Origin: Alphaproteobacteria bacterium
GTDB taxonomy: Bacteria; Pseudomonadota; Alphaproteobacteria; Rs-D84
Assembly: GCA_017642625.1 (NCBI GenBank)
Contig: JAGCOQ010000086.1
Span: 1-11,140 of the forward strand
Reading direction: 5' to 3'
DNA length: 11,140 bases
Shown: positions 380 to 11,140 of the stretch, piece after piece
How positions within the stretch are numbered: position 1 is the stretch's first letter
Layout: every line of letters begins with the position of its first letter
Position numbers and translations under genes: made by a program
The notes under the pieces: model-generated
Database searches by the model: none
Told to the model about the DNA's origin: nothing
The model's input: only the letters and a program-made list of their open reading frames with translations

Positions 380-932
380 ATTTCGTTCTGTTGTGCGACA
401 AACGATACACAGCCAAAACAAAGTCGCGGACGGTTCTTACTTCCAGACCGTTTTGGTATGCCAACTTGATGTCATATGTTCTTTCAATATCTCGCAAAAA
501 TCCGTTGAACCCAACGAAATGACGTGTTGGTGGATTGCCGTACAGAGTAAGATCTTTCCATTGTGAATCCAAATAGAGTGGTGTTTTAATCTTGAATGTT
601 GGTGCGATAGCCTTGATATATTTAAATGTTCCGACAAGTGATTTATCTGGGCCGGCTTTTGTTATCACTGGTTTTTTAAACTTTGGTGAGCAGCATTCTA
701 AAATCGTGACAATGTCACCAACAGTTTTAATAGTGCAGTCATAGAGAATGAAGAAGCAGTTGTTTTCTTTTCCTATTGTTTTTAGAAATTGCCACAAACC
801 TTCGACATTGTTTGGTTCGGATAATAGACCCAGGAAAGTGTCCGCGTCAAATGGTGTGACAAGATTATATTGCGTGGCAAGTTTATTCAAATACTCAAGT
901 ATCTGTGATTCAGAAGAAGTTTCTTGTGCCAT
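378..932 (-). CDS. Hypothetical protein with two ACP-like helical domains
   Basis: The protein has 184 residues, no signal peptide and no membrane segment, so it is probably cytoplasmic. I do not recognise a named family. Two halves end alike: residues 68-82 (IKTVGDIVTILECCS) and 165-179 (VRTVRDFVLAVYRLS). Each follows a predicted helix pair, and the pattern 'FL.DIE..YDIKL.....LEVRTVRDFV' resembles helices II-IV of acyl carrier proteins, whose C-terminal part typically reads 'FGI.I......I.TVGD.V'. The Asp-Ser-Leu site that carries phosphopantetheine is not present in either half. The second half (about 98-184) is clearly related to the 89-residue product encoded at 993-1262, including the shared 'YIK.IAP' and 'TVRD.V.AV..LSH'. 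An ATG start is chosen with AGGGGT a few bases upstream, and a good promoter precedes it. The ACP-like fold is my inference; the relationship between the two genes is seen directly. Confidence 0.7.
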   Translation of the reverse strand: MAQETSSESQILEYLNKLATQYNLVTPFDADTFLGLLSEPNNVEGLWQFLKTIGKENNCFFILYDCTIKTVGDIVTILECCSPKFKKPVITKAGPDKSLVGTFKYIKAIAPTFKIKTPLYLDSQWKDLTLYGNPPTRHFVGFNGFLRDIERTYDIKLAYQNGLEVRTVRDFVLAVYRLSHNRTK

Positions 933-958
933 ATATACCCCTATATAATTATATATGG

Positions 959-986
959 ATTATTGCAACAATTTAATATTTGTCAA
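959..986 (-). promoter_or_regulatory. Sigma-70-type promoter for the 184-residue ACP-like gene
   Basis: On the minus strand a perfect -35 TTGACA (981-986) is followed after 16 bases by AATAAT (959-964); a 17-base reading gives ATAATC. It lies between the stop of the upstream small gene and the start at 932, so the 184-residue gene can be transcribed independently of the acyltransferase/ABC operon. Confidence 0.65.
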
Positions 987-992
987 TATGTA

Positions 993-1262
993 TTATAGGG
1001 TGTGTGACAATTTATGCACAGCAATAACCAAGTCACGAACAGTTTCAATTTGTAAATCTTTGCGATGTTCCATTCGTATTCCAAAATGCTTTTGAATATC
1101 GCATAAAAAATTCGCAATTAAATCAAACTTAAAGCTGCCTGGTTTAATCGGATAAACTTCGGACATATATGCGTTTAGACGGACCGGTTTTCTGAATTCA
1201 TATTTTGGCGCAATCGATTTTATATAATCTAATGTTTGAACAAACGAATAATTATGTTTCAT
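993..1262 (-). CDS. Small ACP-like hypothetical protein, last gene of the acyltransferase/ABC operon
   Basis: The product has 89 residues and no signal peptide. The ATG at 1262 is preferred because it is preceded by AAAAAGGT and lies 10 bases after the stop of the ABC transporter gene, giving a tight operon; a longer open frame upstream would run into that gene. The protein is a relative of the C-terminal half of the 184-residue neighbour: both share 'YIK.IAP', 'P..L', 'FL.DI...' and the end 'TVRD.V.AV.KLSH'. The segment FLCDIQKHFGIRM, then QIETVRDLVIAV, is reminiscent of acyl carrier protein helices II to IV. A serine occurs in PGSFKFDL at the place where ACP has DSL, but the following helix is about three residues longer, so a functional phosphopantetheine site is doubtful. 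Position beside an acyl-transferring enzyme makes an acyl-carrier or acyl-binding role worth testing. Confidence 0.75.
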   Translation of the reverse strand: MKHNYSFVQTLDYIKSIAPKYEFRKPVRLNAYMSEVYPIKPGSFKFDLIANFLCDIQKHFGIRMEHRKDLQIETVRDLVIAVHKLSHTL

Positions 1263-1272
1263 ATGTACCTTT

Positions 1273-3099
1273 TTATTTTGAGTCTTCTGTTTTTTTGCTT
1301 TTCGATTTAAATTGAATATCGCGCAGTTTCTTGTATTCGCCACCCAATGCACACAGTTCCGCGTCGGTTCCTTGTTCCACAATTTGACCATCTTTGATAA
1401 CGCAAATCATGTCGGCATCCAAAATCGTGGACAAACGGTGCGCGATAACGAATGTTGTGCGTCCCTTCATCAAATCTGCCAACGCCGCTTGAATCAATTT
1501 CTCGCTTTGCGTATCAAGCGCAGATGTCGCTTCGTCCAGCAACAGAATAGGGGCATTTTTCAATATCGCGCGTGCAATCGCGACACGTTGTTTTTGACCG
1601 CCCGACAACAAACCGCCACCTTCACCAACAGATGAATTATATCCATCTGGGAAATCCATAATAAAGTCATGGGCGTTTGCCGCACGTGCCGCCGCGACCA
1701 CTTCTTCGTGTGTGGCATCTGGACGGCCATATTTAATATTTGCCTCTATCGTGTCATTAAACAAGAACACATCTTGGGATACTTCGGAAATACTTTTACG
1801 CAAAGACTTTAATGTATAATTTTTAATGTCTGTGCGGTTGATTGCGATTTTTCCAGATTGCGGATCATAAAAACGTTGCAACAGATTAAACATAGTTGTC
1901 TTTCCACCGCCCGATTCGCCAACCAGCGCACATACTGTGCCGGCGGGAACATGAAAATCAACGTCGCGCAATACGGGTTCGCCTGGGTTGTATTCAAACG
2001 ACACATGGTCAAAATCAACCGACAAAGATTTAGATGTTAATTCGCGTGCGTTCCTGGAATCGCGGATGTCGGGTTTGCTGTCCAAGAAATCAAACAATAT
2101 TTCCGCCGCCAAAATACCATGTTGCATAGATTCACCGGTGCCGGTAATACTTTTCGCCGGTTTATATGCCGCGGTCAATGCCAACAAGAACGCCGTAAAA
2201 TCACCGGTTGTGATTGCGCCACTGGTAATAAAGTGGCCACCCATAATCATTGCGATACACAGACCAATGGAAATCATAAACTCCATCAATGGTGAACGCA
2301 TTGCGCCGGCCTGGGTGTTTTTATAAGAATTTGTGTTTGATTTATCCAAAACAGTTGAAAAGTTTTTCAATTCGCGTTCTTCGGTGGCAAAAGATTGAAT
2401 TGTTTTTATGCCACGCAGGGTTTGATTCAAACATTGTGAAACTTCGTTTGCGATTTTAAATCCGCGACGCGACAATTTGCGTTTGCGGCGCATAATCAGT
2501 GCCATTGGCAACAATAACGCTGGCACCAAGAATAACAACACGACGCACATTTGTGGCGCATAGTAAATCATCAAAGCGACCGTCATAACAAGTGTGGCGG
2601 CATTTTGCACAAACTTTACAACCGCGCTGGTCACAAGTGATAACACCGCGCTGGCTTGGACAGAGAAGTAATTCAAGTTCTTGCCAAATCCATCGCCATA
2701 AAAGCGCGCCAGATTCATATGAATCATATGATTATAAATACGCTTTTCCAAACGCGCGTATGCGATTAATCCGCCCTTGGACATAATCAATGATTTAGAA
2801 TAGGTGAATATACCCTTGACTGCGTATGCAATAATTATCTGCATGCCCAGAAAGTATATGGCCGCCATGGACTTTTCAATAAACGCTTTATCGACCACTT
2901 GCTGAACCAAAGTAATCGTATATGCTTCGGCAGATGCGGCAAAGATAGTTGCGATAACGCCGGCAATTAACCACTTTAATTGTGGAACGCCGATTTCGCG
3001 CCACACGCGCCAATACAGCGACCATTTTACGCGTTCTGAATCGGCATCATTTTTGTCGCCAAAAATTATCTTTGCTATTTTTTCTTTTAATTTAGCCAT
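1273..3099 (-). CDS. msbA: MsbA-like lipid flippase, ABC exporter with fused membrane and ATPase domains
   Basis: This is a 608-residue half-transporter of the usual MsbA length, expected to act as a homodimer in the inner membrane and move lipid A core or a similar lipid from the inner to the outer leaflet using ATP. Residues about 40-330 form a six-helix membrane domain (hydrophobic stretches near 43-60, 80-100, 160-180, 183-203, 275-292 and 300-312). The ATPase domain shows Walker A GESGGGKT (394-401), Q-loop Gln442, signature LSGGQ (498-502), Walker B ILLLDE (518-523) and switch His554. All catalytic residues are present. The ATG at 3099 has AAAGGA upstream and starts 11 bases after the acyltransferase stop. 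Co-transcription with an LpxL-family gene supports a lipid substrate, though multidrug exporters of the same fold cannot be excluded from sequence alone. Confidence 0.85.
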   Translation of the reverse strand: MAKLKEKIAKIIFGDKNDADSERVKWSLYWRVWREIGVPQLKWLIAGVIATIFAASAEAYTITLVQQVVDKAFIEKSMAAIYFLGMQIIIAYAVKGIFTYSKSLIMSKGGLIAYARLEKRIYNHMIHMNLARFYGDGFGKNLNYFSVQASAVLSLVTSAVVKFVQNAATLVMTVALMIYYAPQMCVVLLFLVPALLLPMALIMRRKRKLSRRGFKIANEVSQCLNQTLRGIKTIQSFATEERELKNFSTVLDKSNTNSYKNTQAGAMRSPLMEFMISIGLCIAMIMGGHFITSGAITTGDFTAFLLALTAAYKPAKSITGTGESMQHGILAAEILFDFLDSKPDIRDSRNARELTSKSLSVDFDHVSFEYNPGEPVLRDVDFHVPAGTVCALVGESGGGKTTMFNLLQRFYDPQSGKIAINRTDIKNYTLKSLRKSISEVSQDVFLFNDTIEANIKYGRPDATHEEVVAAARAANAHDFIMDFPDGYNSSVGEGGGLLSGGQKQRVAIARAILKNAPILLLDEATSALDTQSEKLIQAALADLMKGRTTFVIAHRLSTILDADMICVIKDGQIVEQGTDAELCALGGEYKKLRDIQFKSKSKKTEDSK

Positions 3100-3110
3100 T
3101 GTTTTTTCCT

Positions 3111-4190
3111 TTATGACCAGCGTTTATGCAACCATAAATATTCGTCTGGTTTTTTCCGAATGACGCGTTCCATTGCTTCATTCACCTTTTTCATGCCGTT
3201 GATTTCGTCGGCATTACTGTCGTCGGTGTGTGGCATGTCAACGAATTCGTCAAACGCCAATATGTGATAAGCCCCATGTGTGCGTTCAACATGTCCGATT
3301 AAAACCGGTAAATTAAACTTTCGCGCCAGTTGTGCCAACCCCGTTGATGTCTTTGCCGGAACGCCCATAAAGTCAATGTATGGCGCACCGTGGAAACGTT
3401 GATCGGAATTGATATTTAACACTTCGCCATTACGCAGGGCGCGCACCATTGGGATTGCGTTTCCAACCGGCAGAAAATGCGTCTCGCGGACATAGCCGTA
3501 TCCATAATTACGCAACAACAGGTCGTTTGTAAGCGGATTATTTGCCTGTTTATATGTGACACCGACAATTCGCCCACTGTTCACGAAGCCCAATGCCATC
3601 AATCCCATATAGCCATAATGAGGCATAGCCAATATGAATTGCGGGTATTTAAACAGCATATCGTGATTACGGAAAGTCACATATTTTTCCATCTTGCGAC
3701 GATATGTTGAAAACTTTAACCCTTCGGTAAAGACGCGCCCCCAGTTGTTCCATACGCGCTTCATAAATTCGCGGTTGGCGCATTCAGGCATTGTCTTTTT
3801 AAGATTATCATACATGGCCTTTTGACGCTTTTTCACCAATGGACCAAATGTTTGCAGTATTGCGCCACCAATCCACGACAACGCGGGCAGGGGCACGAAA
3901 TACAGCAATGTGTTCATAATCTGATACCCGAACAATTCGCGTGGATGTTTCCACCAGCGTTTGATGAATTTGCGCGGTTTTTCAACCTCTATCACACTCC
4001 ATGGGCGCAGTGCAGCAACAACCGCAAACGCGGCGTAAATGACCGCGACCGGCAACAAATATACGGAATCTATGCGGAAAATCGCAGTAATAATAACGAA
4101 CAAAATAAACACAGGCGTAAGAACTGCGGACGACTTTAATCCCTTGGCCACGCAAATCCATGCGCATGCGAATAAAAACAGTGTTATCAT
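3111..4190 (-). CDS. lpxL: LpxL/HtrB-family lysophospholipid (lipid A) acyltransferase with altered catalytic motif
   Basis: The ATG at 4190 gives 359 residues and has AAAGGG at ideal spacing; a TTG one codon earlier (4193) is too near the ribosome site. Numbering below is from this ATG. The N-terminus has an added region with two or three membrane helices (about 1-62); a typical LpxL core follows from about residue 85 (about 300 residues is usual for the family). Family marks are 'VTYKQANNPLTNDLLLR' (211-227), 'MVRALRNGEVLNINSDQR' (248-265), 'FMGVPAKTSTGLAQLAR' and the end 'P.EYLWLHKRW'. The enzyme family transfers an acyl chain from acyl-ACP to lipid A at the inner face of the membrane using a His-x4-Asp/Glu pair. 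Here His191 is in HYGYMG and the sixth position is Gly196, not acidic. It heads an operon with an MsbA-like exporter, matching a lipid A role; the substrate is uncertain. Confidence 0.82.
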   Translation of the reverse strand: MITLFLFACAWICVAKGLKSSAVLTPVFILFVIITAIFRIDSVYLLPVAVIYAAFAVVAALRPWSVIEVEKPRKFIKRWWKHPRELFGYQIMNTLLYFVPLPALSWIGGAILQTFGPLVKKRQKAMYDNLKKTMPECANREFMKRVWNNWGRVFTEGLKFSTYRRKMEKYVTFRNHDMLFKYPQFILAMPHYGYMGLMALGFVNSGRIVGVTYKQANNPLTNDLLLRNYGYGYVRETHFLPVGNAIPMVRALRNGEVLNINSDQRFHGAPYIDFMGVPAKTSTGLAQLARKFNLPVLIGHVERTHGAYHILAFDEFVDMPHTDDSNADEINGMKKVNEAMERVIRKKPDEYLWLHKRWS

Positions 4191-4213
4191 CAATAACCCT
4201 TTGAATCCCCAAA

Positions 4214-4242
4214 ATCTTAGCCCAACGGGGCAATAAAATCAA
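4214..4242 (-). promoter_or_regulatory. Promoter of the acyltransferase / ABC transporter operon
   Basis: Minus-strand TTGATT (4237-4242), a 17-base spacer and TAAGAT (4214-4219) lie about 25 bases before the ATG at 4190. It diverges from the tRNA-Ala promoter, which uses the same -10 hexamer TAAGAT. The match to sigma-70 is moderate. Confidence 0.5.
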
Positions 4243-4254
4243 GCAACAAAATAT

Positions 4255-4283
4255 TTGACATTTATGCGAAATAAATATAAGAT
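4255..4283 (+). promoter_or_regulatory. Promoter of tRNA-Ala and probably rpsU
   Basis: A perfect TTGACA (4255-4260), 17 bases, then TAAGAT (4278-4283; TATAAG at 4276 is an alternative). Transcription would begin near 4290, about 15 bases before the mature tRNA end, as expected for a tRNA gene. Confidence 0.7.
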
Positions 4284-4305
4284 ATGTGGGCTTTCAAAGA
4301 GTTTT

Positions 4306-4381
4306 GGGGTTGTAGCTCAGTTGGTAGAGCACCTGCTTTGCAAGCAGGGGGTCGTCAGTTCGAGTCTGATCAGCTCCACCA
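4306..4381 (+). tRNA. tRNA-Ala (anticodon UGC)
   Basis: A 76-base cloverleaf can be folded by eye. The acceptor stem GGGGTTG (4306-4312) pairs with CAGCTCC, including the G3-U70 wobble that marks alanine tRNAs. The D arm is GCTC...GAGC. The anticodon stem CCTGC/GCAGG encloses TTTGCAA with anticodon TGC at 4339-4341. The T arm GTCAG-TTCGAGT-CTGAT is followed by a genome-encoded CCA (4379-4381). It reads GCN codons and is 49 bases upstream of rpsU with no terminator between, so the two are probably co-transcribed. Confidence 0.97.
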
Positions 4382-4430
4382 AAACAATATATAATAAAGA
4401 TACAAGTTCGCCAAAGGGGGTGAATTATAT

Positions 4431-4637
4431 ATGGTAAAAGTTCTGGTTCGCGACAATAATGTTGAACAGGCATTGCGTGTTGCAAAACGTAAATCGCAAA
4501 AAGAGGGTCTGTACCGCGAAATGAAAGAACGTCAGCGTTATGAAAAACCAACAACAAAACGCAAACGTTTAAAAGAAGAAGCCGTTCGCAACGAAAAGAA
4601 ACGTCAATCAAAACAGCGTATGGTTTTCGGATTCTAA
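4431..4637 (+). CDS. rpsU: 30S ribosomal protein bS21
   Basis: The product is 68 residues, rich in Lys and Arg, and matches bS21 along its length: an N-terminal '[25 protein letters not shown]', the hallmark '[10 protein letters not shown]' (about residues 37-46) and a basic helical tail. bS21 sits on the small-subunit platform near the anti-Shine-Dalgarno region and helps initiation. The start ATG follows an extended ribosome site, AAAGGGGGTGA (4413-4423), close to a full complement of the 16S tail. The gene follows tRNA-Ala and ends at a strong terminator, so it forms a short unit with the tRNA. Confidence 0.95.
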
Positions 4638-4642
4638 TTTCC

Positions 4643-4665
4643 ACCGCCCAATCGGGCGGTTTTTT
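4643..4665 (+). terminator. Rho-independent terminator after rpsU
   Basis: The 7-bp stem ACCGCCC/GGGCGGT (4643-4649, 4654-4660), loop AATC, is followed by six T. It contains the 16-base palindrome CCGCCCAATCGGGCGG that recurs at the ends of three other units in this window. Confidence 0.9.
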
Positions 4666-4686
4666 ATTTTTGTTTTCACTGTTTTA

Positions 4687-4695
4687 TGATATAAT
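4687..4695 (+). promoter_or_regulatory. Extended -10 promoter of the DUF805 gene
   Basis: TG (4687-4688), one base, then a perfect TATAAT (4690-4695). No good -35 is present at 16-18 bases because the preceding T-rich sequence belongs to the rpsU terminator; an extended -10 can replace it. Transcription would start near 4702, leaving a leader of under 20 bases that holds the ribosome site AGGGGG (4706-4711). Confidence 0.55.
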
Positions 4696-4719
4696 CAGAA
4701 GAAATAGGGGGAAAATAAA

Positions 4720-5259
4720 ATGGCAACAACAAAAAAATCAGTTAAAAAAGTTAGCAGGACAGTTATTGTCAAAAAAGAGATGGCTGCACCATGTATGTGT
4801 GGCTGTTGCGAAAATGACAGTGTGAAATACACAAGCATTTGGGCGGCATGGCGTGCATTTTGGCGTCGTGGCTTTTACGAATGGGCGGGAACATCATCAC
4901 GTTCAGAATATTGGTTGGCGTGGGTCGGCAATCTGTTGGTGATGTTGATTGGTGCGCTGATTATGGTGGTGCTGGGCTCGGTAGAGGTCGCATTCTTTGG
5001 TCGTACTGGATTTTTGGCATGGATTATGGGATCGGCATTGGTGCTGTATGTGATTGCGGCGATAATACCGGCAATTTCCATGATGACCCGTCGTATGCAT
5101 GACGCAGGTCTGTCGGCGTGGATGTGGTTAATCTATATAATCAGTGCCTTGCCGGCATATGTTGGAAACGAATGGGTATATGGACCGGGGGCTGGTTTGA
5201 TTGTCGCATTATTGCCGACACAAAATCATGGCAATCGTTTTCACAAGAATAACAAATAA
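4720..5259 (+). CDS. DUF805 family inner-membrane protein with Cys-rich N-terminus
   Basis: The product has 179 residues. From about residue 45 it matches the DUF805 pattern: an aromatic region, 'GTSSRSEYWLAWVGNLL' (57-73), helices near 66-88 and 98-118, the conserved 'RRMHDAGLSAW' (124-134), another helix (about 134-148), and the end 'GNRF' (171-174). The function of DUF805 is not known; it is a small inner-membrane family. Unusual here is the cytoplasm-type N-terminal extension of about 40 residues with many lysines and the cluster CMCGCC (Cys 25, 27, 29, 30), which could bind a metal. The start ATG has AGGGGG at 8 bases. The gene has its own promoter and terminator, so it is probably monocistronic. 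Confidence 0.82.
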   Translation: MATTKKSVKKVSRTVIVKKEMAAPCMCGCCENDSVKYTSIWAAWRAFWRRGFYEWAGTSSRSEYWLAWVGNLLVMLIGALIMVVLGSVEVAFFGRTGFLAWIMGSALVLYVIAAIIPAISMMTRRMHDAGLSAWMWLIYIISALPAYVGNEWVYGPGAGLIVALLPTQNHGNRFHKNNK

Positions 5260-5288
5260 GAAATATTGAAATTAAGAAATATTGAAAT
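5257..5288 (+). repeat. Perfect 16-base tandem duplication at the stop codon
   Basis: TAAGAAATATTGAAAT occurs twice head to tail (5257-5272 and 5273-5288). The first copy begins with the stop codon of the DUF805 gene, so the repeat supplies a second TAA downstream. It looks like a recent replication-slippage duplication just before the terminator. Confidence 0.9.
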
Positions 5289-5289
5289 A

Positions 5290-5319
5290 AAAACACCGCC
5301 CAATCGGGCGGTTGTTTTT
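5290..5319 (+). terminator. Rho-independent terminator after the DUF805 gene
   Basis: Stem ACCGCCC/GGGCGGT (5295-5301, 5306-5312), loop AATC, then TTGTTTTT. It carries the same 16-base palindrome core, in the same orientation, as the rpsU terminator. Confidence 0.88.
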
Positions 5320-5348
5320 ATTTATGTGATTCTGTGTATTTTTTGTAA

Positions 5349-5378
5349 TTGACATATACACAAAAATCGTTTTATGAT
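5349..5378 (+). promoter_or_regulatory. Promoter of the first Cys-rich gene pair
   Basis: A perfect TTGACA (5349-5354), 18 bases, then TATGAT (5373-5378). Transcription should start near 5385, leaving a leader of about 60 bases. The arrangement TTGACATA with an 18-base spacer is repeated before the third Cys-rich gene. Confidence 0.72.
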
Positions 5379-5397
5379 AGTGCGTGTAGAGGGGTGT

Positions 5398-5421
5398 CTA
5401 GTCTAAAAGACCAGTTTAGAT
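5398..5421 (+). promoter_or_regulatory. Possible alternative hairpins in the leader of the first Cys-rich gene
   Basis: Two small stems share bases and cannot form together: CTAGTCT/AGACCAG (5398-5404 with 5408-5414, one mismatch) and TCTAAA/TTTAGA (5402-5407 with 5415-5420). The ribosome site AGGAAAGGA begins at 5432. The stems are weak and could be chance; a leader switch is only a possibility. Confidence 0.2.
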
Positions 5422-5447
5422 GGATCTTCATAGGAAAGGAAAAAGGG

Positions 5448-6095
5448 ATGAAATTCAAATCATTTTTTAATGTAGTTACAGTTTGTGCCTTGTCGATGTT
5501 TGTGTCGACAACGGCTCGTGCGGTTCAATGTGAGGAGTCGCCATCGGGACCTTATCCATACGCCAATGAATTGGCCAATCATAATTATTGTAACACTGGC
5601 ACCACAGAAACTTCGCGGTACTATCAGCTGCAGAATGGTGATTATATTAAGGCCACAAGCTGTACTTCGTGCACAAGTGGGGCGACACTTACCCTTGTGA
5701 AGTATCAAATAAATCCGTATGATGGTGGAGTGTGTGAGATATGGTATGAAGAATGCCAGTGCCCGGATTGTACAAATTGTACATCTACTGATTGGTCAGA
5801 CTATAGTACCTCGCACCAAAGCAGAACCGTAAAAACATGTGACTGTGGAACCTGTAATAGCACAACCGAATATCGTTGTAGAGATGATTATTATGGATCA
5901 CCAACAGGACCATCGTCGGGCTGCACAAAATGTGACACGCTTTACGGTGTCCAATCAAGGTCAACGGCGGGCAATAATAGTTATCACTCTAAATGTTGCT
6001 TCACTAGTGATGTTAGTATACCTGACACTGTGGGAAGCTTTCATTTCACAAACGGCTGTTGCTGGGAACCGGATGGTTTTGAACCCATTGGATAA
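5448..6095 (+). CDS. Secreted cysteine-rich protein, member 1 of a four-gene family
   Basis: The ATG at 5448 follows AGGAAAGGA; an in-frame TTG at 5349 lies in the -35 box and is rejected. The product has 215 residues. A Sec signal peptide (residues 1-25, cut after TTARA) is followed by a mature chain with 19 cysteines. Seen in order: 'CTSC' (72-75), the dense run 'ECQCPDCTNC' (102-111), 'CDCGTC' (131-136), 'TEYRC..DYYG' (141-150), 'SGCTKC' (158-162), a CC pair (183-184) and a final 'GCCWE' (203-207). There is no lipobox, anchor or membrane helix after the signal, so it should be periplasmic or released and disulfide-bonded. 'YRC..GYY...C..C' spacing recalls eukaryotic TNFR/GCC2-GCC3-like Cys-rich modules, but I claim no homology. 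It is followed closely by a near-duplicate gene. Function unknown. Confidence 0.85.
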   Translation: MKFKSFFNVVTVCALSMFVSTTARAVQCEESPSGPYPYANELANHNYCNTGTTETSRYYQLQNGDYIKATSCTSCTSGATLTLVKYQINPYDGGVCEIWYEECQCPDCTNCTSTDWSDYSTSHQSRTVKTCDCGTCNSTTEYRCRDDYYGSPTGPSSGCTKCDTLYGVQSRSTAGNNSYHSKCCFTSDVSIPDTVGSFHFTNGCCWEPDGFEPIG

Positions 6096-6178
6096 ATACT
6101 GTTCGGGGGCATCATAAGTGGTTTAAGTTATAAACATGTTGTCCGGTTTGATGATGTAGATCCCGAGAGGAGGATAAA

Positions 6179-6817
6179 ATGAAATTCAGATTATTTTTTA
6201 ATGTGGTTACAGTTTGTGCCTTGGTGATGCTTGTGTCAACAAATGCTCGCGCAGTCTTGTGTGAGACGGAACCAGCGGGAAGTTACCCATACGCCACGGA
6301 ATTGGTCGATCATAATTATTGTAACTATGGCACCTCTTCGCGGTACTATCGGCTGCAGAGTGGTGAGTATGTTAAGGTTACAGACTGTACTTCGTGCACA
6401 AGTGGGGCGGAACTTAACACTGTGAGGTATACAACAAATCCGTATGGCGGGGGACAGTGTGACATATACTATGAAGAATGCCAGTGCCCAGATTGTACAA
6501 ATTGTACCTCTACTAGTTGGACAAGCTATAGTACCACGCACGAAAGAAGAACATTAAAAACATGTAACTGCGGAACCTGTAATAGCACAACCGAATATCG
6601 TTGTAAAGGTGGTTATTATGGCAATCCAAGCACGGGCAGCAGCGGTTGCACAGCGTGCCCGACATTGTGTGGTAGCCTATCGTCAACATCAACAGCTGGT
6701 TCAAACGGGACTGTAATGGGATGTTGTGCGGCGTCTGGATCAACAGGCAGTAATTCGACCGGTTCATTTACAATAACGAGTCAGGTGTGTGGTGGTGATG
6801 CACTTGAGCTGCTTTGA
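6179..6817 (+). CDS. Secreted cysteine-rich protein, member 2 (duplicate of member 1 with a different tail)
   Basis: The product has 212 residues, and AGGAGG sits 5 bases before the ATG. Signal peptide residues 1-25 end in NARA. The first about 145 residues match member 1 closely, both in protein and in DNA, including 'ECQCPDCTNCTST', 'TCNCGTCNSTTEYRC' and 'GYYG', with the same cysteine positions. The mature chain also has 19 cysteines. After residue 160 the two diverge: this copy has a Ser/Gly/Thr-rich stretch (165-198), one CC pair (182-183), and ends VCGGDALELL without the CCW terminus of members 1 and 3. No reading-frame shift restores a CCW ending. The gene is 83 bases downstream of member 1 with no terminator between, so both are probably on one transcript. 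A hairpin terminator follows at 6869. Confidence 0.85.
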   Translation: MKFRLFFNVVTVCALVMLVSTNARAVLCETEPAGSYPYATELVDHNYCNYGTSSRYYRLQSGEYVKVTDCTSCTSGAELNTVRYTTNPYGGGQCDIYYEECQCPDCTNCTSTSWTSYSTTHERRTLKTCNCGTCNSTTEYRCKGGYYGNPSTGSSGCTACPTLCGSLSSTSTAGSNGTVMGCCAASGSTGSNSTGSFTITSQVCGGDALELL

Positions 6818-6866
6818 TTAGTAGTAAATACTGATTGTTGCAGGGTGACAGAATAAGAATAAAAAA

Positions 6867-6895
6867 ACACCGCTCGATTGGGCGGTTTTAATTTT
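6867..6895 (+). terminator. Rho-independent terminator after Cys-rich member 2
   Basis: Stem ACCGCTC/GGGCGGT (6869-6875, 6880-6886; one G-U pair), loop GATT, then TTTTAATTTT. The core is the 16-base palindrome in the opposite orientation to the rpsU and DUF805 terminators, with one base change. Confidence 0.85.
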
Positions 6896-6900
6896 CATAA

Positions 6901-6930
6901 TTGACATACGAACAGATTTTTTTCTAAAGT
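6901..6930 (+). promoter_or_regulatory. Promoter of Cys-rich members 3 and 4
   Basis: A perfect TTGACA (6901-6906), 18 bases, then TAAAGT (6925-6930). The -10 is weaker than at 5373 but lies at the same distance; TATACT at 6930 is a better hexamer but too far. The leader ends in the ribosome site AGGAAAGGG (6959-6967), nearly the same as that of member 1. Confidence 0.5.
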
Positions 6931-6970
6931 ATACTTGTAGGTGTATTGTATTTGCTATAGGAAAGGGAAA

Positions 6971-8302
6971 ATGAAGTATTTTTTGCGATTTTTTTCAGTA
7001 TTGTTAGTATTTGCTTGTTTCGCACCGAATTGGGCGTATGCTTTAGACGACACCGACCAGGATGATACATACGAATGCCCCGAACCTTCGGAAGATCAGT
7101 TGTGTGATATTGCTGATTCACTGTATCGGGATAATATTTCTTTGGAAAACTGCACTGATGTTTGTACGGCACGTTGCGAAACCGCGATAGGATACAACGC
7201 ATTACCGAATGCAGAAGCGACCTGTCCATCTGCATGCTGGGTCAGATGCGAAGATTTTTGCGAAAATAACAATGGCTGTTTTGTTAGTACGGATTGTCCA
7301 GATGGACGTGGTTGGGGTGGACCAGGTTGTGCTGACGAAGGTGGAGAGGTTGAAGATCCCGGCGAAGAAGAAGGTGGTGATTGTACATATTCGCCAATAA
7401 CAGGAAGCTTAAGTGGCTATGAACCGTTGGATGCATCGGATATAACTGGAGTATGTAGCCAGTATGATACCCCGCAGTTGATTGATGGCTCAGTAAGAAC
7501 ATATTTCCGTAACTGTCTGCAGTGTGCACCGGGTAATATAAAAATTACAGATACAGTTCATATAGAAGATGCGAACTGTATGCTAACATTTGACACCTGT
7601 GAGGAAATATGTACCCCTGGAACAGTTTGTGGAGATTGGACCAGTTATAATGACAAAACGGAAAGCCAAACCTGTACAATTACCGCAGATGATTGTGAAA
7701 CATCATCAACAACAATGTATCGTTGCAAGTCGGGTTATTATGCAACAGGAACCACACCAAACTCCAATCCGGATGGTTTGGGATGTATCTCTCAACAGGA
7801 CTGTGACGCAATGGCAACGATATGGCGCGACATGATGAATATGACCGCCCAAGAACGAATTACACATTGTACGAATATGGGCGCATATACAAATCCACCA
7901 ACCGAAACGGGTCGTTTGTGCGAAATTGTGCGCAGTAATAACGGTGTTCCATCACAGTGCACCGTCTGTACCCCTGATGAGGAATGCGACTGGACCCGGA
8001 TATCACAAGAGTTCGAACGTGGGGCTTGTACGATAACAGCAGCAGATTGCAGTGTTTCTCAAACTTTAAAATATCGTTGTGCGGTTGGTTATTATGCAAC
8101 AGGAACGTCGCCCAATGCGACTCAATCCGGGTTGAATTGTACGGTATGTCCCACTATGTACGATAACACGGTACCAACAACAACGGCCGAAGGGGGGCAA
8201 ACCAGTATTGCCGCATGTTGTGTAGATAGTGTTTCTTATCCATCTTTTTCTGATCCAAAAGGAACGTTCCATATTAATGGCGAATGTTGTTGGGTGCCAT
8301 AA
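6971..8302 (+). CDS. Secreted cysteine-rich protein, member 3, with two internal repeat modules
   Basis: The ATG at 6971 has AGGAAAGGG upstream; an in-frame GTG at 6941 is rejected because it lacks a ribosome site. The product has 443 residues: signal peptide 1-24 (cut after WAYA), a Cys-rich N-terminal domain (36-120), a Gly/Glu linker (120-137, 'GGEVEDPGEEEGG'), then two copies of a module at 214-272 and 333-390. Each module holds 'CTITADDC/CTITAADC', 'T..YRC..GYYATGT.PN' and a closing Gly-x-Cys. The C-terminus 'CPTMYDNT...CC...GTFHINGECCWVP' matches the end of member 1 (CC pair, 'G.FH..G.CCW'). No anchor or lipobox is seen, so periplasmic or extracellular location is inferred. The product should depend on disulfide formation. 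Member 4 follows after 25 bases. Function unknown. Confidence 0.85.
   Translation: MKYFLRFFSVLLVFACFAPNWAYALDDTDQDDTYECPEPSEDQLCDIADSLYRDNISLENCTDVCTARCETAIGYNALPNAEATCPSACWVRCEDFCENNNGCFVSTDCPDGRGWGGPGCADEGGEVEDPGEEEGGDCTYSPITGSLSGYEPLDASDITGVCSQYDTPQLIDGSVRTYFRNCLQCAPGNIKITDTVHIEDANCMLTFDTCEEICTPGTVCGDWTSYNDKTESQTCTITADDCETSSTTMYRCKSGYYATGTTPNSNPDGLGCISQQDCDAMATIWRDMMNMTAQERITHCTNMGAYTNPPTETGRLCEIVRSNNGVPSQCTVCTPDEECDWTRISQEFERGACTITAADCSVSQTLKYRCAVGYYATGTSPNATQSGLNCTVCPTMYDNTVPTTTAEGGQTSIAACCVDSVSYPSFSDPKGTFHINGECCWVP
7610..8140 (+). repeat. Internal duplication within Cys-rich member 3
   Basis: Two related segments, 7610-7786 and 7967-8140, encode the modules at residues 214-272 and 333-390. 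Both encode 'GYYATGT' with the same DNA, GGTTATTATGCAACAGGAAC (about 7733 and 8087), and share the cysteine spacing. The spacer between them (273-332) has its own cysteines and a Met-rich helix. Confidence 0.7.
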
Positions 8303-8327
8303 TATAAAAATATTGCCCAGTTAAATC

Positions 8328-9413
8328 ATGAGGGAAAGGTTGAGAAAAATACTTAAAAATCTTTTTTGTTCGCTGTTTATAATCACGATGGTGGTTGCAC
8401 CAGCACGTGTTTGGGCGGATACTAGGGTATCTTGTCCAAATATGGGAAGCGGAAGTGTTTGCAACGATGCAATGTATATTGGCGACAATGAAAGGTTAGA
8501 AGGCTGCAGGAGATCGGAAGAAGTTTGTTATTATCTTCAAACAGCATCTTCTCCTGGATATGCTCATTACAGGGTTAACGACTGTAAAGAGTGTGGTACT
8601 GGGTATGCCCCAACGTTAGAGGAAGTATTAGCAGATGGCGATGTACCGTTTCAGAGTGGTGCCACAAGATGCGTAGTAAGATATGGAGGATGTGAGTGGA
8701 ATGGTGGATGTACTGACCCTGACCCCGATTGTGTTTCTGATAATGATTGGTCCAGTTATTCTACAGGATATGACAAATATGTAGAACAGTATTGGGAATG
8801 TGATCATTGTTTAAGCACTACGTCATATAAGTGTGCAAATGATTATTATGATGAAAATGGACATACCTCGGGGGTGACGAGTATGGATTTGCTGAGTTGT
8901 AAAAAATGCCCGACTGCAGCCGATTGTACCGAAGATAAATGGGTGACTGTATCTGACAGAGGAGTGGAAAGATGTCTTTTTAATTATTCTGGATGTACAA
9001 CGATACAACTTTATCGTTGCAAAGATGGATATTATCCTGAAACAAACAGTGCGGCGACTTCATTAGTATGTCGAAAATGTCCAACAATGGTGGATTTAGA
9101 AAACGATACAACAACACCATGGAGATCTGCTGGGCAAACTGGGTATGAAATACGATCCCTTACAAATCCTGCACCAAAGGTATGTAGTGAAGTTGCGCAA
9201 TATCGTTGCGCGTCGGGATATTGGGGTGCGGCGCAAACTCTTTCGGGGACACTATCAGGGTGTACAAGGTGCGCAACAATAATGGGAGTACAATCGTCTT
9301 CGGTGGCTGGGGAAAATGCTACACGCAACCAATGTTGTGTAAAAAAAGGAGACAGGGCAAAAGTTACGGGGGGTATATTGGAGATCGATGAACCGTGTTG
9401 TGATGATACATAA
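8328..9413 (+). CDS. Secreted cysteine-rich protein, member 4, with three YxC..xYY modules
   Basis: The product has 361 residues from the ATG at 8328. A basic n-region (RERLRK), hydrophobic core and 'PARVWA' give a signal peptide of 30 residues. The mature part has modules at 'SYKCANDYY' (166-174), 'LYRCKDGYY' (228-236) and 'QYRCASGYW' (291-299), each followed by a C..C pair (191-194, 248-251, 312-315), plus CC pairs at 336-337 and 357-358. 'GCTRC.....VQSSSVAG...CC' matches the end of member 1, but this copy stops at PCCDDT. The start is uncertain: no ribosome site precedes 8328, and AGGGAAAGG lies just inside the frame at 8331-8339. The gene follows member 3 by 25 bases and is presumably co-transcribed. 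Arginine is mostly AGA/AGG, unlike obgE. Function unknown. Confidence 0.82.
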   Translation: MRERLRKILKNLFCSLFIITMVVAPARVWADTRVSCPNMGSGSVCNDAMYIGDNERLEGCRRSEEVCYYLQTASSPGYAHYRVNDCKECGTGYAPTLEEVLADGDVPFQSGATRCVVRYGGCEWNGGCTDPDPDCVSDNDWSSYSTGYDKYVEQYWECDHCLSTTSYKCANDYYDENGHTSGVTSMDLLSCKKCPTAADCTEDKWVTVSDRGVERCLFNYSGCTTIQLYRCKDGYYPETNSAATSLVCRKCPTMVDLENDTTTPWRSAGQTGYEIRSLTNPAPKVCSEVAQYRCASGYWGAAQTLSGTLSGCTRCATIMGVQSSSVAGENATRNQCCVKKGDRAKVTGGILEIDEPCCDDT

Positions 9414-9415
9414 TT

Positions 9416-9443
9416 AAAACACCGCCCGATTGGGCGGTGTTTT
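9416..9443. terminator. Bidirectional terminator between Cys-rich member 4 and the small membrane gene
   Basis: A perfect 12-bp stem, AAAACACCGCCC/GGGCGGTGTTTT (9416-9427, 9432-9443), loop GATT. The A run on one side and T run on the other allow it to stop transcription from both the plus-strand Cys-rich genes and the convergent minus-strand gene. The core is the recurrent 16-base palindrome. Confidence 0.92.
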
Positions 9444-9460
9444 ATTGTAATTCCATGTAA

Positions 9461-9721: not shown

Positions 9722-9953
9722 TTTTTATGGTGCTGGATTCTGGTGCCAGGTTCCAGCGGACCCCGCAAAAGCTTAAACGAATGCGACTAACAATAGCCAG
9801 CCACATTCAATGCCATATTAGGCAGCCATTGCAAGGCGAACGTTGTCGTTCGCAGCGATTGTATCGCCATTCATTTTTTAGTTGGTTTTTTACGACACCA
9901 TGTCGGATTCAGCCAATTTGTCTTTCGTCATCTGTCGAAGCTATAACACCCCC
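9722..9953 (-). ncRNA. ssrA: tmRNA coding piece
   Basis: It starts with acceptor strand GGGGGTG (9953 down to 9947), followed by TTATAGCTTCGACAG. A hairpin CGACA-TGG-TGTCG (9893-9905) has a loop that can pair with ACCAA (9882-9886), a candidate pseudoknot 1. The tag frame follows, then a 3' hairpin GCTGGA...TCCAGC (about 9732-9757). The length, about 230 bases, is estimated because the processed 3' end cannot be read from the sequence. Confidence 0.85.
9818..9856 (-). other. ssrA: tmRNA tag reading frame, peptide AANDNVRLAMAA
   Basis: The minus strand reads GCT GCG AAC GAC AAC, then codons for Val-Arg-Leu-Ala-Met-Ala-Ala and TAA. Known tags begin (A)AND and end in two small residues seen by ClpXP. 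GCT is taken as the resume codon by analogy with alphaproteobacterial AANDN tags; starting at GCG would give 11 residues. The ending A-M-A-A differs from the more common A-L-A-A or A-V-A-A. Confidence 0.88.
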
Positions 9954-9964
9954 ATATGTATTAT

Positions 9965-10030
9965 TGGTGGAGGTGCCGGGTACCGCCCCCGGGTCCAAAA
10001 TGATTATTGCACAACGGTTTCAGAATCATC
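9965..10030 (-). ncRNA. ssrA: tmRNA acceptor piece
   Basis: This piece ends in a genome-encoded CCA (9965-9967) after discriminator A. The T stem is CCGGG/CCCGG (9988-9992 with 9976-9980) around loop GGCGGTA, a non-standard T loop in place of TTCGANT; my recollection is that this is typical of the alphaproteobacterial type. The 5' end is not fixed by the sequence; upstream, TCGC-GCAA-GCGA (near 10031-10042) folds as a GNRA-capped hairpin that may be trimmed off. Confidence 0.85.
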
Positions 10031-10050
10031 TTCGCTTGCGCGACCCTTAA

Positions 10051-11140
<1,090 letters not shown>

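Follow-up and report, generated by a model that had tools for sequence, protein, structure and literature searches.

Four neighbouring plus-strand genes, here called W1–W4, were analysed in a stretch of 11,140 nucleotides (the window; contig JAGCOQ010000086.1, assembly GCA_017642625.1) from an alphaproteobacterium of the Rs-D84 lineage. The four encoded proteins belong to one cysteine-rich family and end in a common C-terminal module, the last 40 residues of which recur in relatives as a tag close to the stop codon, behind N-terminal parts that vary from protein to protein. The reading preferred here, given a probability of about 0.45, is that W1–W4 represent an unnamed, lineage-restricted family of exported, disulfide-bonded and surface-displayed proteins, in which the module would serve as a tag for sorting or assembly.

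The cluster spans positions 5448-9413. As the original prediction held, the four adjacent open reading frames (ORFs) encode signal peptides, predicted here by a simple rule, followed by mature chains saturated with cysteine (8.8–10.2% of residues), and the figure of 19 mature cysteines for each of the first two members was exact. The lack of an anchor and of a lipobox was confirmed as well: no lipobox was found in W1–W4, and the mature chains were considered free of membrane anchors because their highest 19-residue mean hydropathy reached only 0.73. The start of the cluster had been placed at 5349, which is a -35-like hexamer; W1 begins at the ATG at 5448. W1 and W2 are a tandem duplicate, with 61% protein identity and 82% DNA identity over 449 bases. 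Overall, the original prediction was partly supported, being correct in what it observed and half right in its interpretation.

The common C-terminal module and its tag

All four W proteins terminate in a module of about 100 residues. In the relatives found with W2, it has the pattern C..C...W...GY....C.C..C...YRC..GYYG...GC..CP.....S.AG.T.IT.CY...G...SD.TG.Y.YT..CYY, followed by the stop; in W1, W2, W3 and W4, 8, 10, 2 and 2 residues come after the module, respectively. The module profile (A2) was rebuilt without the window and nearest-genome rows (25 of 30 rows kept) because its seed alignment had contained window rows. The rebuilt profile scored W1–W4 at 81.5, 79.3, 36.7 and 88.1 bits, respectively, and 500 shuffles of each protein gave at most 1.6 bits; the match is thus more than an effect of composition. 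W1 and W2 have one copy of the module each. W3 has two, of which the inner copy matched weakly, and W4 has three; in both proteins the last copy is terminal. The C-terminal pattern originally proposed, with CC or CCW near the end, stood in so far as a common module ends all four proteins, but the terminus of W2 reads VCGGDALELL.

Structure prediction, proposed earlier for each member, was run for mature W2 and for the module, which alone was predicted to fold as a unit with a predicted local distance difference test score (pLDDT) of 88.6. Such a fold favours the main rival to a sorting tag, namely that the module is a mere conserved folding domain of proteins that are freely released and work in solution, where they might be binding proteins or effectors directed at host or competitor cells. 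The partial copies inside W3 and W4 and the lack of an anchor also fit this explanation, which was rated as unlikely, though serious. It is opposed by the behaviour of the tag in relatives.

The tag was examined with a profile of the last 40 residues (A5, an alignment of 78 of 92 tails; the full-length alignment, A3, held 43 of 49 candidates). Among 108 distinct tagged ORFs of relatives, whose loci were mostly best hits and hence biased to good matches, the tag lay at most three residues from the stop codon in 98 (0, 1, 2 and 3 residues in 50, 32, 9 and 7 ORFs, respectively) and farther away in 10. The profile was seeded from C-termini, with internal ORF matches still free to show, and the module was indeed internal in one giant protein of the nearest genome, G001. 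In 21 of the 108 ORFs, the tag occurred without a preceding YRC..GYY-like motif; these included proteins of about 96 residues, several of them near-identical copies in one genome. Both the extreme terminal position and the motif-less tagged proteins argue against a mere folding domain of released proteins.

The remainder of the tagged proteins was variable. When ORFs of at least 160 residues were compared by BLAST with neither low-complexity filter nor composition correction, the same for both parts, the last 105 residues matched in 3470 of 4005 pairs (E <= 1e-3) and the N-terminal remainder, minus a 25-residue signal peptide, in 219 of 3741. A simple hydrophobicity rule found a signal peptide in 62 of 79 module ORFs. 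The recurrence of the tag at the extreme end of otherwise differing exported proteins constituted the main argument for a role in sorting or assembly.

No described family was matched with confidence by W1–W4: Pfam gave no family at E <= 1, and NCBIfam gave a single chance row (W3 against fimbrial LpfA, 12.2 bits against a cut-off of 221). For 43 relatives, Pfam and PHROGs each returned two families, which were taken as chance and were confined to one member apiece. A PDB sequence search with the module retrieved a single cytochrome besides antibody or nanobody chains; the best E value was 0.011, and these hits too were put down to chance. The likeness to TNFR and GCC2-GCC3 proteins suggested by the original prediction proved weak, as was that to ephrin receptors. 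Two relatives scored 23.0 and 21.3 bits against Ephrin_rec_like (PF07699), under its cut-off of 23.1, and W1–W4 had no match at E <= 1. The cysteine-rich domains of TNF and ephrin receptors, with GCC2/GCC3-type repeats, were nonetheless counted among the closest known systems. A literature search, judged by titles and the openings of abstracts and with subscription papers outside its scope, returned nothing on the tagged family or on the RNA leader described below.

Among known systems, bacterial C-terminal sorting tags (type IX CTD, PEP-CTERM, LPXTG) likewise place one C-terminus on differing exported proteins, whereas the W proteins are cysteine-rich and have no hydrophobic C-terminal segment, Pfam match or known partner enzyme. 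PEP-CTERM or LPXTG sorting was rejected for want of the hydrophobic segment, as judged by the hydropathy maximum given above, and a type IX secretion CTD was rejected on the Pfam result. The variant-specific surface proteins of Giardia, eukaryotic proteins whose constant end is a membrane anchor, are also multi-copy and cysteine-rich, with a variable N-terminal part and a constant C-terminus. In contrast to them, the W proteins are bacterial, without membrane anchor or Pfam match, and gave no sign of one-at-a-time expression.

Chlamydial cysteine-rich envelope proteins such as OmcB, which are structural, are exported too and occur in bacteria with reduced genomes, whereas the W family is variable and multigene and has no Pfam match; OmcA/OmcB membership was rejected on this Pfam result at E <= 1 and on the missing lipobox. 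A disulfide cross-linked envelope coat of the chlamydial kind nevertheless had to be weighed. A content of about 10% cysteine, odd mature counts in all four proteins (19, 19, 39 and 29), predicted export and a small genome agree with it. It was considered improbable in view of the missing match to chlamydial families, the very variable N-terminal parts and copy numbers, and the many same-genus genomes without the family, which is unlike what a needed coat would show.

Table 1. Positions of the W1–W4 genes, their modules and other features in the window
Feature	Position	Strand	Details
W1	5448..6095	+	215 aa; predicted signal peptide 25 aa; mature Cys 19/190
W2	6179..6817	+	212 aa; predicted signal peptide 25 aa; mature Cys 19/187
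W3	6971..8302	+	443 aa; predicted signal peptide 24 aa; mature Cys 39/419; acidic
W4	8328..9413	+	361 aa; predicted signal peptide 30 aa; mature Cys 29/331
W1 C-terminal module	5769..6068	+	residues 108-207
W2 C-terminal module	6494..6784	+	residues 106-202
W3 inner partial module	7631..7792	+	residues 221-274; domain E 0.0013, weak
W3 C-terminal module	7982..8293	+	residues 338-441; domain E 6.2e-10
W4 two inner partial modules	8727..9095	+	residues 134-197, 199-256; domain E 1.2e-8, 9.8e-7
W4 C-terminal module	9108..9404	+	residues 261-359; domain E 1.7e-15
Near-identical block in W3	7598..7745	+	148 bases, 98.6% identical to a cysteine-rich G001 gene, at end of G001 contig
Promoter-like site before W1	5349..5378	+	11/12
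Promoter-like site before W3	6901..6930	+	10/12
Terminator-like hairpin after DUF805 gene	5295-5312		
Terminator-like hairpin between W2 and W3	6869..6886	+	
Two-way terminator-like hairpin after W4	9415..9444	.	
DUF805 gene	4720-5259		left border of W1–W4 cluster
obgE	about 10085-11113		right of W1–W4 cluster

Distribution and turnover of the family

A search for further paralogs, which the original prediction had called for, was run across relatives and revealed many. W2 alone was searched against 59 genomes, namely G001, which has 40% of the window's sampled 31-letter words, and 58 relatives, and matched in 16 of the 59. Of 201 genomes of the order, 93 carried the module; they all belong to one family and fall into 11 of 23 genera. 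Among 385 genomes sampled across the class, only four had it, each from the window's nearest genus. Copies reached 28 at E <= 0.01 in G061, a genome of one contig and 1.0 Mb, where the 28 were scattered chromosome-wide and 20 of them had E values of 1.1e-5 or better. At the same threshold, the tag matched 43 times in G172, 41 in G033, 36 in G061 and 29 in G028. Of 12 genomes in the same genus for which no module match was listed, eight had no tag match and four had one, and the tag profile matched in none of 16 more distant genomes.

Scattering of copies between housekeeping genes, near-identical small copies in one genome, an apparently frame-broken copy in locus L122 and the many relatives that do without the family would suit a selfish or drifting gene family, duplicating and spreading without a selected function in the cell. 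This was deemed very improbable, as many divergent copies have preserved their cysteine pattern, signal peptide and terminal tag, and reduced genomes seldom keep dozens of useless genes.

A termite-gut record (L002), labelled as a Rickettsiales metagenome-assembled genome (MAG), contained three tagged genes. In L002:911-17419, tagged genes and leaders lie amid phage-like genes (portal-, terminase- and tail-like, by eye) and chromosomal-looking ones (dnaB-like). A phage origin of the family was rejected, as 13 viral-contig stretches matched a pattern and none of them encodes a relative. Among unusually long frames, L120:6881-13720 (-) and L121:4889-11743 (-) are giant ones, the first of 2279 aa including 180 cysteines and the second of 2284 aa including 190, and L034:5395-11154 (+) is an open-ended frame of 1920 aa with 68 cysteines and near-threshold Listeria-Bacteroides repeats.

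The G001 locus matching the window (L033) has the same left neighbours, with 92.0% identity over positions 1-435 and 90.1% over 1003-5322. Right of this shared flank, L033 continues to the end of its contig with a different set of cysteine-rich genes, which lie on both strands. Within the W cluster, only positions 6864-6993 (77%) and the near-identical block in W3 (Table 1) aligned to G001 over more than the length of a terminator. Judged by these alignments, the locus is hypervariable and the cluster has been replaced relative to G001. Were the W3 block as diverged as the flank, its 148 bases would show two or fewer differences with a probability of 3e-5, a figure uncorrected for how many places were inspected. 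In the flank itself, window 436-1002 gave no alignment to the otherwise 90-92% identical G001 locus; it covers most of a 184-aa ORF on the minus strand (378-932) without a Pfam family.

W3 was also compared with three related proteins. Its identity to P0002 was 93-100% over residues 151-270 and 43-73% before them, and that to P0003 was 10-37% as far as residue 270 and 80-93% over the remainder. For P0004, the product of the cut-off G001 gene, identity was 93% in one 30-residue block and at most 43% before it. By these comparisons, W3 is a patchwork relative to P0002-P0004. This patchwork, the turnover of the locus and the near-identical block were counted in favour of the preferred reading.

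Candidate machinery and the case for a sorting tag

If the preferred reading holds, the signal peptides would carry the W chains through Sec to the periplasm, where a DsbA-like enzyme would close their disulfides. The C-terminal module would then direct passage across the outer membrane to, or assembly at, the cell surface and might retain the proteins there. The variable N-terminal parts would point outward and be renewed by exchange between copies, with the C-terminus held constant, and the proteins would act as binding proteins in contact with partner or host cells. Ca. Enterousia, of the order Rs-D84, are gut bacteria whose MAGs measure about 0.75-1.02 Mb; they lack a respiratory chain and standard transporters for sugars, amino acids and peptides, and are presumed to live in dependence on partners (PMC12306168). 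The window was presumed to come from this lineage on the strength of its relatives' genome size, and the way of life was counted in favour of the preferred reading.

Machinery was searched in 28 genomes of the same family, comprising 16 tag-rich ones (12-26 module matches) and 12 without a listed match. Of the DsbA/DsbB pair named in the original prediction, the first partner was found and the second was not: each of the 28 genomes encodes exactly one Thioredoxin_4 (DsbA-like) protein, and neither DsbB nor VKOR matched in any of them. A DsbA-like protein without DsbB or VKOR thus occurs in a lineage described as being without a respiratory chain. Exactly one secretin per genome and several OEP (TolC-type) matches were detected in all 28.

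Several of these results weigh against a sorting tag. With DsbB and VKOR absent, the re-oxidation of DsbA is unexplained. No machinery co-occurs with the tag, as the DsbA-like protein, the secretin and OEP are equally present in tag-rich and tag-poor genomes and, being in all 28, none of them explains the presence of the tag; the same fact favours free release of the proteins. Many genomes of the same genus do without the family. Moreover, after removal of the window rows (71 of 78 rows kept), the tag-only profile scored the window proteins weakly (28.0, 20.0 and 17.8 bits for W1, W2 and W3, with shuffles up to 12.9) and did not report W4, so the tags in the window have diverged. Finally, a conserved folding domain would explain most of the same sequence facts.

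The single secretin was considered as a possible machine reading the tag. In G033, it was nearest to PilN, a family of type IVb pili, at 237.5 bits against a cut-off of 287.65, and its gene comes after a TcpQ-domain gene. Seven secretin neighbourhoods (L187-L193) were inspected. In three of them (G061, G080 and G033), the slot just downstream was occupied by a cysteine-rich gene with the tag; in the other four (G003, G028, G029 and G172), it held different genes, of which several encode a signal peptide or many cysteines. Search by pattern in 0.76 Mb of loci, which is not a genome-wide test, revealed no pilin or ATPase motifs. According to PMC9565799, the soluble colonization factor TcpF is exported, by means of an N-terminal signal, by a type IVb pilus in whose operon it is encoded. 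The genomes studied here resemble that system in having a type IVb-like secretin with a TcpQ-domain neighbour and, in three of seven neighbourhoods, an adjoining tagged gene. They differ from it in that the TcpF signal, by that account, is N-terminal; furthermore, the secretin is equally present in tag-poor genomes and none is encoded in the window. Because tag-poor genomes carry the same secretin, its link to the tag was treated as a lead and not as evidence, and the type IVb-pilus-like secretin is only a candidate for the machine that reads the tag.

RNA leaders in relatives, window signals and biological meaning

Of 84 tagged genes whose start was detected, 39 are preceded by a structured leader that reaches into the ribosome site, and a second pattern split these leaders into 30 of one kind (class I) and nine of another (class II). 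The leader is about 137 nt long, perhaps about 200 nt (for example L051:1058-1194 (+), L073:1975-2112 (-) and L002:4907-5042 (+)). The leader alignment (A6) contained 27 rows. Class I supplied 26 of them, its other four members being omitted for an odd length or a poor fit; one further leader was added, and the nine of class II were excluded. In the 27 aligned leaders, a 30-pair structure, whose CCUCC strand covers the Shine-Dalgarno sequence, had 93.8% of cells able to pair, and 10 of its pairs were changed on both sides compared with 4.8 in shuffles. An incompatible 10-pair helix, formed by the 5' hairpin with the same CCUCC strand, had 94.8% of cells pairing and five pairs changed on both sides. 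A switch would be expected to have two such exclusive pairings at a ribosome site. In ten loci, no Rfam family exceeded its threshold over the leader; sRNA-Xcc1 overlapped one at 36 bits (threshold 53). The leader is proposed as a candidate new class of cis-regulatory RNA.

The leader model (R1) was found in 53 copies in G172, 42 in G033, 32 in G061 and 24 in G028, counts that may be low since at most 103 first-look candidates per genome were scored. Among the 23 of the 32 G061 copies that were listed, 14 precede a gene with the tag or a variant of the tag within about 1.3 kb on the same strand. Tag-poor genomes also had 0-24 copies, and five genomes from the order's other families had one or two weak ones. 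By eye, the genes below the leader include those of tagged proteins, two-gene secreted operons, small genes of helix-turn-helix-like proteins, a beta-barrel-like gene and those of large repeat proteins. Owing to this variety, the leader marks a wider gene set, and its being exclusive to tagged genes was ruled out by the same variety and by the copies in tag-poor genomes. A role as regulator of the window genes was ruled out too, as R1 had no match at E <= 1 in the window. At L122:12027-12665 (-), the tagged copy that is apparently frame-broken near its end, through decay or assembly error, has a leader match upstream (12576-12711).

The two transcription units with similar promoters envisaged in the original prediction were borne out in part. 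The three hairpins in Table 1 fit two units, and terminator-like sites numbered 10 in the region against 3.8 expected, but promoter-like sites as a class were at chance level (10 found against 12.3 expected in shuffled sequence). The DUF805 membrane protein has an N-terminal CMCGCC motif, and in G001 its gene likewise borders the cluster on the left. A two-piece (permuted) alphaproteobacterial tmRNA gene follows shortly after the cluster, at 9729-10083 (-).

A bolder extension of the preferred reading was considered doubtful. It would make the module the address tag of an undescribed display route, in an order of gut bacteria with reduced genomes, carrying up to about 40 recombining disulfide-rich cargoes per one-megabase genome, with the lone type IVb-type secretin as its exit and, in relatives, an RNA-leader switch of a new class. 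These bacteria would then possess an equivalent of the variable cysteine-rich coats found on gut parasites and use it to grip partner cells.

Taken together, the sequences point to a protein family with a recombining repertoire, covering a gene set that the libraries searched leave unnamed, and the function of W1–W4 is open to testing: as the C-terminus is shared, a single reporter construct could probe whether it serves in sorting. If the leader is truly a switch, it would offer a handle on the regulation of such a gene set in relatives. No means by which these bacteria hold partner cells is named in PMC12306168, and a tagged, multi-copy, recombining cysteine-rich family is a direct molecular candidate for that task.

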